This document shows positions 59,230-64,000 of a stretch of 64,000 bases of DNA, one piece after another. The position numbers and the translations under genes were made by a program. Every line of letters begins with the position of its first letter. Position 1 is the stretch's first letter. The stretch spans positions 2,015,375 to 2,079,374 of the forward strand of contig NZ_VFOK01000001.1 of the NCBI RefSeq assembly GCF_006716095.1. Direction: 5' to 3'. A model generated the notes under the pieces. The model saw only the letters and a list, made by a program, of their open reading frames with translations, was not told the DNA's origin and searched no databases. This stretch comes from Barrientosiimonas humi (GTDB lineage: Bacteria > Actinomycetota > Actinomycetes > Actinomycetales > Dermatophilaceae).

Positions 59230-59736
59230 TCAGGACCCGTCGGCGCGGGCAAAGGTCAGCGTCTCGCCGCGCGCCCCGCCCATCCACACGTCCTGGCACG
59301 CGGCGACCATCTGCTCGTAGCCGTCGGTGATCTCGGCGAACACGTTGCCGGGCACGTAGCCCTGGTCGCCGTTGATGAGCAGGTTGTTGCGGCCGTAGAA
59401 GATCGCCAGGTCCACGATGCGCCCGGCGGCGCGGTGCTCGCCCTCGGCCTCGTAGCCGTACGCCGGGTTGCCGAGGTCGTCGCCGCTGAAGCTGAACCAG
59501 CACACGTCGCGCGGGATCGGCGTGATCGTGGTGTTCTCCGGGCCGGGCTCGGCCGCCGCCCAGTCGGTGACGAGGCCGTAGACCTCGTTGCGGGCGTACT
59601 TCCCGTGGAAGGCGGGCGCGGTGACCGGCAGCGCGTCCCAGACCGCCGCGCAGGTGCGCGGGGCGACCTCGTCGAGCAGCCGGGCGGTGCACGAGACCTG
59701 CCGGCGGTCCAGAGTGATGGTGATGAGGCGGGGCAC
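59230..59736 (-). CDS. DUF3830 family protein
   Basis: A 168-residue cyclophilin-like (DUF3830) protein: SCTARLLDEVAPRTCAAVWD, HGKYARNEVYGLVTDW, TPIPRDVCWFSFSGDDLGNP and INGDQGYVPGNVFAEIT. Members occur in catabolic clusters with amidases, hydantoinases and racemases; the activity is not established. It follows the amidase gene by 18 nt and is the last gene of the operon dehydrogenase-amidase-DUF3830. Confidence 0.88.
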   Translation of the reverse strand: MPRLITITLDRRQVSCTARLLDEVAPRTCAAVWDALPVTAPAFHGKYARNEVYGLVTDWAAAEPGPENTTITPIPRDVCWFSFSGDDLGNPAYGYEAEGEHRAAGRIVDLAIFYGRNNLLINGDQGYVPGNVFAEITDGYEQMVAACQDVWMGGARGETLTFARADGS

Positions 59737-59754
59737 GGTTCCTCCTGCGCGGGG

Positions 59755-61161
59755 TCAGCGGGTGCGGGGCGGGTGCTGGGTGTGCCAGGTGGTCGCCTGC
59801 TCGAACGCCCGGCCCACGCGCAGCGCCGCGGCGTCGTCGTGCCGCGCGGCCACGACCTGCAGCCCGATCGGCAGCCCGTCGCCGGTGAAGCCGCACGGCA
59901 CGGTGAGCGCCGGCTGCTGGGTCATGTTGAACGGGTAGGTGTAGGGAGTCCACGAGGTCCACAGCGGCGAGGGCCAGCCGTCGGGGGCGGGCTGACCGGC
60001 GGGGAACGCCGCGATCGGCATGGTCGGGGTCAGCAGCGCGGCATACGTCGTGTGCAGCTCCCCCATCACCCGCCCCAGGTCGGCGCGCACCGCCACCGCG
60101 TCCAGGTAGTCCGCCGCGGTGGCCCTGTCGCCGAACTCCTCGATGGCAGAACGCAGTCCGGGGTCGATGCGCTCGCGCGCGCCCGGCCCGTACGCGTCGA
60201 TCACCTTGGCCGCGCCGGTGAACCACAGCGTGTGGAACGCCTCGACCGGGTCGGCGATGCGCAGGTCGATCTCGTCGACCTGCGCGCCCTGCTCGCGCAG
60301 CACGTCGACCGCCGCCCGGACGGCGGCCTCGACCTCGGGGTCGTTGCGGCCGGTGCCGAGGTCGGGCGAGAAGGCGATCCTGGTGCCGGAGACGCCGGAG
60401 TCGAGCCCGTCGAGGTAGGAGCCGGGGTGGGTGGGCATCGCCGACCAGTCGCGCGGGTCGGGCCGGGCGATGACGTCGAGCAGCAGCGCGCAGTCGGTGA
60501 CCGAGCGGGTCATCGGGCCGATGTGCGACAGCGTGCCGTAGGGGCTCGCCGGATAGATCGGCACCTGGCCGTAGGTCGGCTTGAGAGCGACCACCCCGCT
60601 GAACGCCCCTGGGATCCGGACGGATCCGCCGCCGTCGGTGCCCACCGACCAGGTGCCCATGCCGAGCGCCGTCGCGGCCGCCGCGCCACCGCTCGACCCG
60701 CCGGAGGTGCGACCGGGGTCCCACGGGTTGCGGGTGACGCCGTGCCGCAGCGAGTCGGTCACGCCCTTCCACCCGAACTCCGGCGTGGTGTTCTTCCCGA
60801 AGATCACCTGCCCCGACTCGCGCAGCCGCGCGACGAACGGTGCGTCGACGTCCCACGGGCCGGTGTCGTCGACGAGGTTGCTGCCGCGATAGGTCGGCCA
60901 GCCGCGGGTCGGCACCATGTCCTTGACGGTGAGCGGCACCCCGTCGACCGGGCCCACCGGCTCCCCCGCCCGCCAGCGCCGCGCGGACAGCTCCGCGGCT
61001 CCCCGGGCCGCCGGCTCGTCGAGCATCGTGATGGCGTTGACCGCGCCGTCGAGCCGGCGCACCGCGTCGAGCGCCGAGTTCAGCGCGTCGACGGGCGTCC
61101 ATGTGCCGGAACGGAATCCGGCGACCAGCTCGTGCGCGCCGAGCATCGACAGGTCGGTCAT
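59755..61161 (-). CDS. Amidase-signature family amidase
   Basis: A 468-residue Ser-cisSer-Lys amidase. The catalytic lysine is in GVPLTVKDMVPTRGW (about 79), the Gly/Ser-rich signature is GRTSGGSSGGAAAATALG (about 150-167) and the nucleophile region is VGTDGGGSVRIPGAFSG (about 173-189). LTVPCGFTGDGLPIGLQVV is the conserved C-terminal part. The substrate is unknown; cluster context suggests opening of an amide in a cyclic or acylated compound. It overlaps the dehydrogenase gene by ATGA and is thus under the GntR-type operator. Confidence 0.93.
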   Translation of the reverse strand: MTDLSMLGAHELVAGFRSGTWTPVDALNSALDAVRRLDGAVNAITMLDEPAARGAAELSARRWRAGEPVGPVDGVPLTVKDMVPTRGWPTYRGSNLVDDTGPWDVDAPFVARLRESGQVIFGKNTTPEFGWKGVTDSLRHGVTRNPWDPGRTSGGSSGGAAAATALGMGTWSVGTDGGGSVRIPGAFSGVVALKPTYGQVPIYPASPYGTLSHIGPMTRSVTDCALLLDVIARPDPRDWSAMPTHPGSYLDGLDSGVSGTRIAFSPDLGTGRNDPEVEAAVRAAVDVLREQGAQVDEIDLRIADPVEAFHTLWFTGAAKVIDAYGPGARERIDPGLRSAIEEFGDRATAADYLDAVAVRADLGRVMGELHTTYAALLTPTMPIAAFPAGQPAPDGWPSPLWTSWTPYTYPFNMTQQPALTVPCGFTGDGLPIGLQVVAARHDDAAALRVGRAFEQATTWHTQHPPRTR

Positions 61162-62135
61162 CGCGCACCCGTGGCGACGAACCCGCCCTGCTTGTCGACG
61201 GCGTACGGCAGGGGTTCGTCGGCGAGCCACCGCTCGGCGAGGTCCACGAACTGGTCGGCGAGCCGGTCGCGCCAGCCGACGACGTCGCCCGACATGTGGG
61301 CCGAGACGTGCACCCCGGGCAGGGTCCACAGCGGGGAGTCGGGCGGCAGCGGCTCGGTCTCGAAGACGTCGAGGGAGGCGGCGGCGACCTGCCCCTGCTC
61401 GATCGCTTGCACCAGGTCGACCTCGACCAGGCTGCGCCCGCGTCCGACGTTGACGACGTGGGCGTGCGCGGGCAGCGCGGCGAAGACCGTCGCGTCGAGG
61501 ATGCCGGTCGTCTGCGGGGTCAGCGGCGCGGCGTTGACCAGGTGGTCGACGTCGCCGACGTGCCGGGCCAGCTCGCCGCTCGCGACGATGCGGTCGAAGT
61601 CGTCGTCGCCGTCGCGGGCGGTGCGACCGGCCCCGGTGACCCGCATGCCGACGGCCCGCAGCAGCCGGCCGGTGGCCCGGCCGATCCCGCCGGTGCCGAC
61701 GACCAGGGCGTGCGACCCGGCGGTCTCGCGCGGCTCGCGGTGGCGCCAGGTGCGCTCGCGCTGCAGGTCGGCCGAGGCGTGCAGCAGCTTGTCCTGGGCG
61801 AGCACGCTGGCCAGCACGAACTCGGCGATCGGTCGGTCGAAGACGCCGCGCGCGTTGGTCAGCACCACGTCGGAGTCGCGCAGCCCGTCGAACAGGATCG
61901 CGTCGACGCCGGCGGCGGCCACGTGCACCCAGCGCAGCCGGTCGCGCCGCGGCCAGGCGGCCTCGAGCGCCGGGTTGAAGAAGTCCCACAGCAGCAGGGC
62001 GTCGGTGCCGGGCAGCGCGTCGGCCAGGCCGTCGCTGTCGCACACCCGGACGTCGAAGCGGCCCGCGAGCCGGTCGAGCCGGTCCGGGGCGTCGCCGCCG
62101 GACTCCACGAGAACAGTCAGCACCGGGGCAGCCAC
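61158..62135 (-). CDS. D-isomer-specific 2-hydroxyacid dehydrogenase
   Basis: A 325-residue NAD(P)-dependent dehydrogenase. The nucleotide fold is ALVVGTGGIGRATGRLLRAV (about 136-155). The catalytic region has VNAAPLTPQTTGILDATVF, NVGRGRSLVEVDLVQAIEQG and ASLDVFETEPLPPDSPLW, followed by VHVSAHMSG with the catalytic histidine. I chose GTG at 62135 because TTGACA-N18-TAGCGT places it 7 nt after the -10 box; GTG at 62144 overlaps that box. First gene of the three-gene operon. Confidence 0.93.
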   Translation of the reverse strand: MAAPVLTVLVESGGDAPDRLDRLAGRFDVRVCDSDGLADALPGTDALLLWDFFNPALEAAWPRRDRLRWVHVAAAGVDAILFDGLRDSDVVLTNARGVFDRPIAEFVLASVLAQDKLLHASADLQRERTWRHREPRETAGSHALVVGTGGIGRATGRLLRAVGMRVTGAGRTARDGDDDFDRIVASGELARHVGDVDHLVNAAPLTPQTTGILDATVFAALPAHAHVVNVGRGRSLVEVDLVQAIEQGQVAAASLDVFETEPLPPDSPLWTLPGVHVSAHMSGDVVGWRDRLADQFVDLAERWLADEPLPYAVDKQGGFVATGAR

Positions 62136-62142
62136 GGCGGCC

Positions 62143-62172
62143 ACGCTAGGAACGCGGCCGAGAGATTGTCAA
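62143..62172 (-). promoter_or_regulatory. Promoter of the dehydrogenase-amidase-DUF3830 operon
   Basis: Minus strand TTGACA (62172-62167), an 18-nt spacer, TAGCGT (62148-62143), then 7 nt to the GTG at 62135. The -35 box is consensus and is embedded in the operator. Confidence 0.7.
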
Positions 62173-62178
62173 CAATCT
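62163..62178. promoter_or_regulatory. GntR-type operator, copy 1
   Basis: AGATTGT-CA-ACAATCT, a perfect 16-bp inverted repeat covering the -35 box of the dehydrogenase promoter. The ATTGT-NN-ACAAT form is typical of FCD/GntR-family repressors. Confidence 0.75.
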
Positions 62179-62213
62179 TTGGGCGCGTAGCCGTCGGGTG
62201 GCGGGCGCATCGT

Positions 62214-62861
62214 TCAGCCCGCGGCCGCCACCTCGCGGACCATGACGCAGTTGCCCTTCCCCTTGGGGCGGTCGTAGACGAAGCCGACGCGCTCGTACAT
62301 CCGGCGGGTGCCGTTGTAGACGAACGACGCCGACATCCGGCGCCCGTCGAGGTCGTGCGGATATCCCTCGACGACGCCTCCCCCGGCTGCCGCGATCAGC
62401 TCGACCGCGCCGCGCAGCGCGAGCTCGGCCACCCCGCGCCGCCGATATCGCCGGTCGACGAAGATGCAGGTCACCCGGAAGTCCGGCGGCTGCTGCTGCT
62501 CGGCGAGGTACTGCTTGCGGTGGTGCAGGTTCGGCAGCTCCTCGGGCGGCCCGAACTCGGCCCAGCCGACCGCCTCCTCCCCGTCCAGGACCAGCGCGGC
62601 GTGCGTCGCATCCTCCTCGACCCAGCGCTGCTTCAGCGCCCGGTTGCCCTCGTAGGACTGGCGTTTCTCCGGGCAGTCGGGCCCGAAGAAGGTGCACCAG
62701 CACCCGCCGAAGATCCCGTTGTGCCGCTCGACCAGGGCGGCGAACTGCGGCCAGGTCGAGACGTCCAGGGCCGCGATGCGCAGCCCGTCGAGGTCGGGCT
62801 CGACGGCTGCTCGTGGCTGCTGGCCCCGCTTCTTCCCCGTGTCCTTCTGCTTGGTGCTCAT
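62214..62861 (-). CDS. GNAT-family N-acetyltransferase
   Basis: A 215-residue acetyltransferase. Acetyl-CoA binding is in TCIFVDRRYRRRGVAELALR (about 134-153, RRxGxA-type), preceded by GWAEFGPPEELPNLHHRKQY and followed by EGYPHDLDGRR, VYNGTRRMYERVGFV. A cysteine cluster GGCWCTFFGPDCPEKR (about 52-67) is unusual and defines the subgroup sometimes called GNAT with a C-rich N-terminus. It lies between the two operators, divergent from the EutA-like gene, so it could belong to the regulon. Substrate unknown. Confidence 0.88.
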   Translation of the reverse strand: MSTKQKDTGKKRGQQPRAAVEPDLDGLRIAALDVSTWPQFAALVERHNGIFGGCWCTFFGPDCPEKRQSYEGNRALKQRWVEEDATHAALVLDGEEAVGWAEFGPPEELPNLHHRKQYLAEQQQPPDFRVTCIFVDRRYRRRGVAELALRGAVELIAAAGGGVVEGYPHDLDGRRMSASFVYNGTRRMYERVGFVYDRPKGKGNCVMVREVAAAG

Positions 62862-62929
62862 GCGGCCAGCCTGAACCCGGTCCCGGTCGGAACGCGGACG
62901 GAACCGGGCGCAACTCGCGATCGGCAAAA

Positions 62930-62943
62930 GATTGTCAACAATC
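62930..62943. promoter_or_regulatory. GntR-type operator, copy 2
   Basis: GATTGT-CA-ACAATC, identical in the central 14 bases to copy 1. It overlaps the -35 box of the EutA-like promoter and lies 69 bp before the GNAT start on the other strand. Confidence 0.75.
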
Positions 62944-62961
62944 CACATCGGGATGCACCAT
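62932..62961 (+). promoter_or_regulatory. Promoter of the EutA-like/M24 operon
   Basis: TTGTCA (62932-62937), an 18-nt spacer, CACCAT (62956-62961), then 6 nt to the ATG at 62968. The geometry copies the dehydrogenase promoter. Confidence 0.6.
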
Positions 62962-62967
62962 GGGCGC

Positions 62968-63765
62968 ATGCTCCCCAGCCACCCCGCCGTGCCCGACCCG
63001 GGCGACGTCGGTCTGGACCTGCCCGACGAGGCGCCGGTGGGGTCGGTGGGCATCGGGGTGGTCGCGCCCTACGACTTCGCGCTGGACCGCGAGCTGTGGC
63101 GCTGGGTCCCTGAGCAGGCGGCGCTGCTGCTGACCCGCACGCCCTTCTCCTCGCTGCCGGTGAGCGTCGAGCAGGCCACGACGGTGGGTGACCCCGACAC
63201 GGTCGCCGCGTGCACCTCCAGCCTCATCGCCACCCGTCCCGAGGTGGTCGCCTACGCCTGCACGTCGGGCTCGTTCGTCGGGGGCGTCGCGGGTGAGCAC
63301 GCCCTGGTCGCCTCGATGCTCGCGTCGGGCACGCCCGCGGCGGTGACCTCCAGCGGCGCGCTGCTGATGGCGCTGCGGCACCTGGGGATCCGGCGCCTCG
63401 CGGTGGCCACGCCGTACGACCAGCGCATCACCGACCGGCTGCGCGCCTTCCTGTCCGCCTCGGGCATCACCGTCACCGCGAGCACCCTGCTGCAGCTGCG
63501 CGGCCTGATCTGGCGGGTGCCCTACGGCACCACCGTCGAGCTGGTGCGCGAGGCGGTCGCCCGGGACGACTGCGAGGCGGTCTTCATCTCCTGCACCAAC
63601 CTCCCGACGTACGACCTCATCGCCCCGCTCGAGCGCGAGCTCGGCATCCCCGTGCTCACCGCGAACCAGGTGACGCTGTGGGCCGCGCTGCGGCTGGCGG
63701 GCATCGCCGCGATCGGCGAGCAGCAGCGACTGCTCGCCGTGACTCACCACAGGCCGGCCGCGTGA
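62968..63765 (+). CDS. EutA-like Asp/Glu racemase / maleate isomerase family protein
   Basis: A 265-residue protein with the two-cysteine active site of the Asp/Glu/hydantoin racemase fold: VAYACTSGSFVGG (Cys about 90) and VFISCTNLPTYDLI (Cys about 208), plus VEQATTVGDPDTVAACTSS, SSGALLMALRHLGIRRLAV and LTANQVTLWAALRLAG. The layout matches maleate cis-trans isomerases and ectoine-utilisation protein EutA. I chose the ATG at 62968 on promoter geometry; ATG at 62953 is an alternative. It overlaps the M24 peptidase gene by GTGA. Confidence 0.82.
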   Translation: MLPSHPAVPDPGDVGLDLPDEAPVGSVGIGVVAPYDFALDRELWRWVPEQAALLLTRTPFSSLPVSVEQATTVGDPDTVAACTSSLIATRPEVVAYACTSGSFVGGVAGEHALVASMLASGTPAAVTSSGALLMALRHLGIRRLAVATPYDQRITDRLRAFLSASGITVTASTLLQLRGLIWRVPYGTTVELVREAVARDDCEAVFISCTNLPTYDLIAPLERELGIPVLTANQVTLWAALRLAGIAAIGEQQRLLAVTHHRPAA

Positions 63766-64000
63766 CGACGAACACCCTTCGGCCGCAACCGTTTCCGGCC
63801 CAGGAGTATGTCGCTCGCCTGCAGGCGGTGCAGCGCCGGATGGCCGAGCGCGACCTCGCCTCGCTGGTGGTCGTCGACCCGGCGAACCTGTACTACCTGA
63901 CCGGTTACAACGCGTGGTCGTTCTACACCCCGCAGTGCCTGGTCGTCCCGGTCGAGGGGCCGCCCCACCTGTTCGCCCGCGCGATGGACGCCCAGGGTGC
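63762..64000 (+). CDS. M24-family peptidase, ectoine hydrolase (DoeA/EutD)-like, cut by right edge
   Basis: Only the first 79 codons are in the window. The N-terminal creatinase/prolidase domain reads EYVARLQAVQRRMAERDLAS, LVVVDPANLYYLTGYNAWSF and YTPQCLVVPVEGPPHLFARA. The YLTGYxxWSFYxPQ segment is very like the N-terminus of ectoine hydrolase DoeA/EutD. The metal-binding catalytic domain lies outside, so the reaction cannot be confirmed. Its GTG start overlaps the EutA-like stop, so both are made from the same operator-controlled transcript. Confidence 0.8.
   Translation, partial: MTTNTLRPQPFPAQEYVARLQAVQRRMAERDLASLVVVDPANLYYLTGYNAWSFYTPQCLVVPVEGPPHLFARAMDAQG

Follow-up and report, generated by a model that had tools for sequence, protein, structure and literature searches.

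A 2018 review confined ectoine consumers to the Proteobacteria (PMC5924519), and the EnuR/EutR regulons are of the MocR type (Suvorova and Rodionov 2016, PMC5320631; Hermann 2021, PMC8739950). Putative ectoine clusters of Gram-positive bacteria, found via EutD and EutB, are listed in a later article (AEM 2026, PMC13188858). We analyzed a stretch of 64,000 nucleotides from Barrientosiimonas humi (contig NZ_VFOK01000001.1, positions 2,015,375 to 2,079,374; hereafter the window), in which a short palindrome recurs among catabolic genes near the right end. We consider it likely that an FCD-GntR repressor, itself encoded in the cluster, uses this palindrome as its operator, and that the regulon imports and degrades ectoine, probably 5-hydroxyectoine as well. 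Very probably, the genes represent a conserved set with which soil actinomycetes eat the salt-stress protectant ectoine. Judged from sequence, both the chemical route and the regulator implied by this set differ from those known in Proteobacteria, and actinomycete ectoine use thereby gains a candidate regulator, operator and route.

The cluster shares with the eut/doe clusters of S. meliloti, R. pomeroyi and H. elongata a DoeA/EutD-like hydrolase (here M24), an EutA-like protein, a class III aminotransferase and a dehydrogenase resembling succinate semialdehyde dehydrogenase (SSADH), as well as, in some actinomycete relatives, the transporter EhuBCDA. In contrast to those clusters, it has an FCD-GntR gene rather than a MocR-type EnuR, an M20 deacylase replaces DoeB/EutE, and EutB is absent above the cut-off (best match in the genome 210 bits, cut-off 413). 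Additional components are a class I aminotransferase (AT1), a D-2-hydroxyacid dehydrogenase (HADH) and, in many relatives, a YdiJ-like flavoprotein. Control of ectoine use by the GntR superfamily is common to this cluster and the EutR/EnuR regulon; however, EnuR carries an aminotransferase domain that binds pyridoxal phosphate and the inducer, whereas the actinomycete regulator carries an FCD domain and has the predicted operator ATTGTNNACAAT. The Gram-positive clusters, as the text of that article describes them, also combine EutD, an M20-type enzyme (abgB), an aminotransferase and an aldehyde dehydrogenase (ALDH) with major facilitator superfamily (MFS) or Ehu transporters and lack EutE. They differ in having EutB/EutC, PucR and thrA, and the text makes no mention of an FCD-GntR regulator, an operator, AT1, HADH, the flavoprotein, an amidase or DUF3830.

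The palindrome and the FCD-GntR regulator

The original prediction had described two palindromes in the window, and both are exact and lie where it had placed them (Table 1). The 14-mer GATTGTNNACAATC occurs in three perfect copies in the whole 3.65 Mb genome, all inside 8.6 kb, and the genome-wide scan revealed no stray perfect copy outside the cluster. A near-copy with two mismatches, TTTTGTCGACAATC, is located at the transporter gene. There are no one-mismatch copies in the whole genome, and eight further two-mismatch sites are dispersed over it. From base composition 0.007 perfect copies are expected per genome, and shuffling of the window gave an expectation of 0.21 palindromes when up to two mismatches were allowed.

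No regulator gene is present in the window, as had been noted. When the contig was extended to the right, as the original prediction proposed, the cluster was found to run about 9.5 kb past the window end, and a GntR-FCD gene, the remainder of M24 and a transporter were all found there. The regulator gene starts 4.2 kb past the window end. Its product scores above the cut-offs of both PF00392 (60.1 bits) and PF07729 (65.5 bits), which places it in the FCD subfamily of GntR; it has no aminotransferase domain of the EnuR/EutR (MocR) kind. AT1 was considered as a MocR regulator and dropped, as it is a separate enzyme with no helix-turn-helix.

A search for M24 in 297 genomes of the same order identified 24 carriers. 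Five relatives (L040-L043, L049) share the gene set, mostly in rearranged order, and its operators, and no operator was found in the fetched M24 loci that lack a GntR orthologue beside M24 (L039, L044-L048, L050-L058). A scan with an AT1 profile, limited to one genome per species, then yielded 80 loci from many actinomycete families, many of them cut by contig or fetch ends. ATTGTNNACAAT was present in 75 of these (185 copies in 1.50 Mb), while 19 permuted half-site palindromes, the reversed pattern and half-sites set 0, 1 or 3-8 nt apart gave zero matches in the 80 loci. Copies precede HADH, EutA1, M24, the aminotransferase AT3, ALDH, EutA2, MFS and other genes, and therefore do not reflect one inherited stretch. 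The variant at the MFS gene, which ends in ACAAAA, is seen at that gene again in Kribbella, Mycobacterium and Microlunatus. In the genome of the window the perfect copies are confined to the cluster, and the operator is common to numerous genera, among them Arthrobacter, Rhodococcus, Kribbella and Mycobacterium.

Among 20 related genomes ten carry the operator and nine have a homologue of the FCD-GntR protein, all nine among the ten, so that it accompanies the regulator in 9/9 genomes and occurs in 1/11 genomes without it (Fisher p = 6e-5). This co-occurrence, together with the FCD-GntR gene in the cluster, supports the earlier suggestion of a GntR/FCD-type operator. That the palindromes arose by chance, or are sites of an unrelated global regulator, is extremely improbable: the palindrome does occur in other settings in a few relatives (G017, G150), beside related FCD-GntR genes, but the low expected copy number, the confinement of the perfect copies to the cluster, and the 185 copies ahead of several different cluster genes, with zero for control patterns, led us to reject this explanation. 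To judge from G017 and G150, the palindrome may elsewhere be recognized by other, closely related FCD regulators. The loci concerned, L175 (G017:C1:1131000-1150999) and L180 (G150), carry it before HAD-type hydrolases, FAD oxidoreductases and an ABC transporter (identified by reading), and may represent a sister regulon that shares this operator.

In the proposed mode of action, the regulator would sit on the palindrome, at either the -35 box or the -10/start region, and would be released by an ectoine breakdown product. Promoters of identical geometry had been claimed, and this is correct at the two sites in the window. The minus strand reads TTGACA-18 nt-TAGCGT-7 nt-GTG, with the start codon at 62135; the plus strand reads TTGTCA-18 nt-CACCAT-6 nt-ATG, with the start codon at 62968. 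As a general rule it was dropped, as operator placement differs among cluster promoters of relatives. There the operator covers the -35 box at the HADH promoter only, where it contains TTGACA (with TANNNT at offset +27/+28 in 27/51). At ALDH (21/21), EutA2 (17/23), M24 and AT3, a -10-like TANNNT lies at or just ahead of the operator, and at ALDH and EutA2 operator bases form part of the -10-like box. Both placements would suit repression.

Ectoine as the likely substrate

A catabolic regulon for an ectoine-like solute had been anticipated, and relatives support this. The operator stands directly ahead of EhuBCDA operons in L083, L103, L108, L134 and L177. When compared with the curated ectoine/hydroxyectoine cut-offs (TIGR02995/3003/3004/3005), all four subunits passed in L177 and EhuB passed in L083, L103, L108 and L134; EhuA of L108 was just below. 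Transport is the strongest evidence on the substrate, which, because the operator precedes such ehuBCDA genes, is most likely ectoine/hydroxyectoine.

M24 also matches the solved ectoine hydrolase DoeA (6twk) from end to end with 344 bits, agrees with four annotated DoeA sequences in 106 of 121 conserved columns, and has the motifs GGDYPAIVPMLPTG, RYHAP and YPPDWGERT in common with DoeA. The original prediction had counted a lack of metal ligands in M24 against its reading. Most of the ligands are indeed lost: in an alignment to prolidase 1pv9, at what we take to be its metal-ligand positions, two Asp, a His and one Glu are replaced (E256, P267, Y329, L364) and E377 is kept. The solved DoeA lacks the same ligands, so this loss is expected of the family. 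The possibility that M24 is a metal-dependent peptidase was dropped for the missing ligands.

Several observations weigh against the proposed explanation. M24 scores 407.8 bits over its full length against the TIGR02993 ectoine-hydrolase equivalog, whose cut-off is 613; its clade falls outside the four DoeA sequences in a tree with some long branches and a tool warning; and other M24 enzymes of similar identity occur in different contexts, for example with sarcosine oxidase. There is no EhuB above cut-off in the window's own genome, so that the substrate is inferred largely from relatives. The flavoprotein homologue in this genome lies apart from the cluster, has no operator and is 49% identical. 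The homologues in G017 and G150, two genomes counted as regulator carriers, are more distant (42% and 35%) and stand among other genes. Lastly, G164 keeps the genes of the add-on module described below without an M24 orthologue, for which the proposed model gives no explanation.

Some of these points would also suit another small cyclic amidine or amide, acted on by a DoeA-like enzyme of shifted specificity, namely the score of M24 below the curated cut-off, the other contexts of DoeA-like M24 genes, and the set of amidase, DUF3830, EutA1, HADH, AT3 and ALDH in that one relative. We regard such a substrate as unlikely, since operators precede Ehu transporters above the ectoine cut-offs in several genera and M24 shares the three motifs with DoeA.

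The transporter of the cluster is nearest ProP, and the organism presumably uses this carrier in place of EhuB-type uptake. An ectoine synthase, EctC, is encoded in the same genome (G000:C1:3353894-3354271), and the organism therefore probably both makes and degrades ectoine. Related M24 genes were also seen on Shinella plasmids. Two (L139, L140) carry MocR regulator-EutA-M24-M20, in which M24 is slightly closer to the M24 studied here (48%) than DoeA is (46%); this is possibly another ectoine-like pathway with M20 for DoeB. A third (L142) has a DoeA-like M24 beside Ehu-annotated transporters, a GntR gene and sarcosine oxidase subunits, and this M24 group may have a further substrate.

Candidate breakdown route and add-on module

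In the proposed route, ectoine would be taken up by the ProP-like carrier (EhuBCDA in some relatives) and its ring opened by the DoeA-like M24 to N-acetyl-diaminobutyrate, from which the M20 enzyme would remove acetate in place of DoeB. AT1 would take off the alpha-amino group, before or after this deacetylation, and HADH would reduce the resulting 2-oxo acid; the D-2-hydroxy acid so formed would be 4-amino-2-hydroxybutanoate (hydroxy-gamma-aminobutyrate). AT3, by omega-transamination, and the SSADH-like ALDH would convert this to D-malate, which the YdiJ-like FAD/Fe-S dehydrogenase would oxidize to oxaloacetate. This passage via 4-amino-2-hydroxybutanoate and D-malate instead of aspartate is put forward tentatively.

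The known substrate of each route enzyme is a near analogue of its proposed intermediate: AT1 is nearest to LysN-type aminotransferases, HADH to D-2-hydroxyacid reductases, AT3 to PuuE/GabT, ALDH to SSADH, and the flavoprotein of relatives to D-2-hydroxyglutarate dehydrogenase. The M20 deacylase conserves H92, D123, E161/E162, E187 and H379. No match to TIGR02994 (DoeB/EutE) was found in the genome, and no EutC-like family is among those recurring in at least five related loci, the organism's own genome not having been searched for EutC. DoeA is reported to produce alpha- and gamma-acetyl isomers at 2:1, the gamma isomer being unused by DoeB (PMC5924519); with its free alpha-amino group, this isomer could enter the proposed route. 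Literature searches returned nothing relevant that links D-malate or 4-amino-2-hydroxybutyrate to ectoine, nor any published FCD-GntR ectoine regulator, absence there being weak evidence.

With the same regulator and substrate, the chemistry could instead be classical: M24 and M20 would yield diaminobutyrate, AT3 and ALDH would yield aspartate semialdehyde and aspartate, and AT1, HADH and the flavoprotein would serve only 5-hydroxyectoine (e.g. 3-hydroxyaspartate to oxaloglycolate and on). This is a serious possibility, if short of an even chance. In broad enzyme class AT3 and ALDH agree with DoeD/Atf and DoeC/Ssd (for the DoeD and DoeC classes, PMC5924519), and ALDH is 48% identical to Paracoccus Ssd, but AT3 is just 29% identical to Paracoccus Atf. 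The gene counts in the 80 loci also speak against it: AT1 80 (by selection), M24 77, M20 72, HADH 70, ALDH 55, AT3 51, GntR 50, flavoprotein 45 and MFS 40. Because HADH and the flavoprotein are frequent, and occur even where a locus has no EutA gene at all, they have the appearance of core steps. AT3-flavoprotein-ALDH are contiguous in 23 loci, and M24-AT1-M20 form a second unit.

EutA1, EutA2, the amidase and DUF3830 form an add-on module: in 65 long loci its genes nearly always occur as a set or are lacking as a set, with one partial case; EutA1, amidase and DUF3830 were counted 28-30 times each and EutA2 23 times (ends cut). The module is optional and perhaps serves the hydroxylated substrate. 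Both catalytic cysteines are present in EutA1 (36/36) and only the first in EutA2 (27/27). With 100 and 77.7 bits, respectively, against the TIGR02990 EutA equivalog cut-off of 318, both are EutA-like only. The G164 locus (L176, G164:C4:16000-30000) has DUF3830-amidase-HADH/EutA1 and AT3/ALDH units, operators and a GntR homologue.

The family DUF3830, for which a structure has been solved, is now placed in a defined gene module. The closest fold to its predicted model (pLDDT 82) was 3KOP from Arthrobacter sp. FB24 (Z 25.5), the sequence of which is orthologous over 166 residues. The Pictet-Spenglerases McbB and KslB followed (Z 16.5, root-mean-square deviation 2.2-2.4, 134-136 residues), and cyclophilins were lower (Z about 12). 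A sequence relationship to McbB/KslB was dropped, as the profile search was empty, and no DUF3830 match was found in plasmid records. Ectoine-ring chemistry would accommodate a condensation or a cleavage at a C=N bond, a shared fold being no proof of function. We remain doubtful of the full picture, an undescribed actinomycete 2-hydroxy route under FCD-GntR (N-acetyl-diaminobutyrate, 4-amino-2-hydroxybutanoate, malic semialdehyde, D-malate, oxaloacetate) plus a four-gene add-on in which DUF3830 would be a Pictet-Spenglerase-fold enzyme acting on a cyclic imine/amidine of the hydroxyectoine branch.

Genes of the cluster

Families were assigned with Pfam and NCBIfam, and the gene calls made earlier hold for DUF3830, the amidase, the 2-hydroxyacid dehydrogenase, the EutA/Amdase-like protein and M24.

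Table 1. Genes (+, rightward; -, leftward) and operators in their order along the DNA; positions marked ext. continue the window numbering past 64000.
Feature	Position	Strand	Remarks
DUF3830 protein, cyclophilin-like fold	59230..59736	-	PF12903, E 2e-59 (Pfam); 3kop match E 1e-71
Amidase-signature hydrolase	59755..61161	-	NF004815, above cut-off
HADH, D-2-hydroxyacid dehydrogenase	61158..62135	-	R232, E261, H280 conserved among orthologues
Operator 1, GATTGTCAACAATC	62164..62177	none	Within AGATTGTCAACAATCT (62163-62178); overlaps -35 box of HADH-amidase-DUF3830 unit
GNAT-like acetyltransferase, 215 aa	62214..62861	-	By reading; no Pfam or NCBIfam match
Operator 2, GATTGTCAACAATC	62930..62943	none	Upstream of EutA1-M24; 69 bp upstream of GNAT-like gene
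EutA1, Amdase/EutA-like	62953..63765	+	Both catalytic cysteines present; start 62953 or 62968
DoeA-like M24 amidinohydrolase	63762..64000 in window, to 64964 (ext.)	+	
AT1, class I aminotransferase	64969-66183 (ext.)	+	
M20 deacylase	66180-67484 (ext.)	+	
EutA2, EutA-like	67487-68224 (ext.)	+	
FCD-GntR regulator, 226 aa	68227-68907 (ext.)	+	
ALDH, aldehyde dehydrogenase	69172-70680 (ext.)	-	
Operator 3	70726-70739 (ext.)		Between ALDH and AT3
AT3, aminotransferase like that for gamma-aminobutyrate	70764-72014 (ext.)	+	
MFS carrier, ProP-like	72100-73476 (ext.)	-	
Operator 4, variant	73513-73526 (ext.)		At MFS carrier gene

The two divergent units were described with the right gene identities, but the GNAT-like gene between the operators had been overlooked. 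In relatives one operator serves divergent HADH and EutA1; here this gene separates two identical copies, as if it had been inserted with duplication of the operator, and it was found in none of the related clusters. A Rid-family gene beside an operator copy (L177:6957-7412, L134:17165-17620) joins the regulon in Arthrobacter-like genomes.

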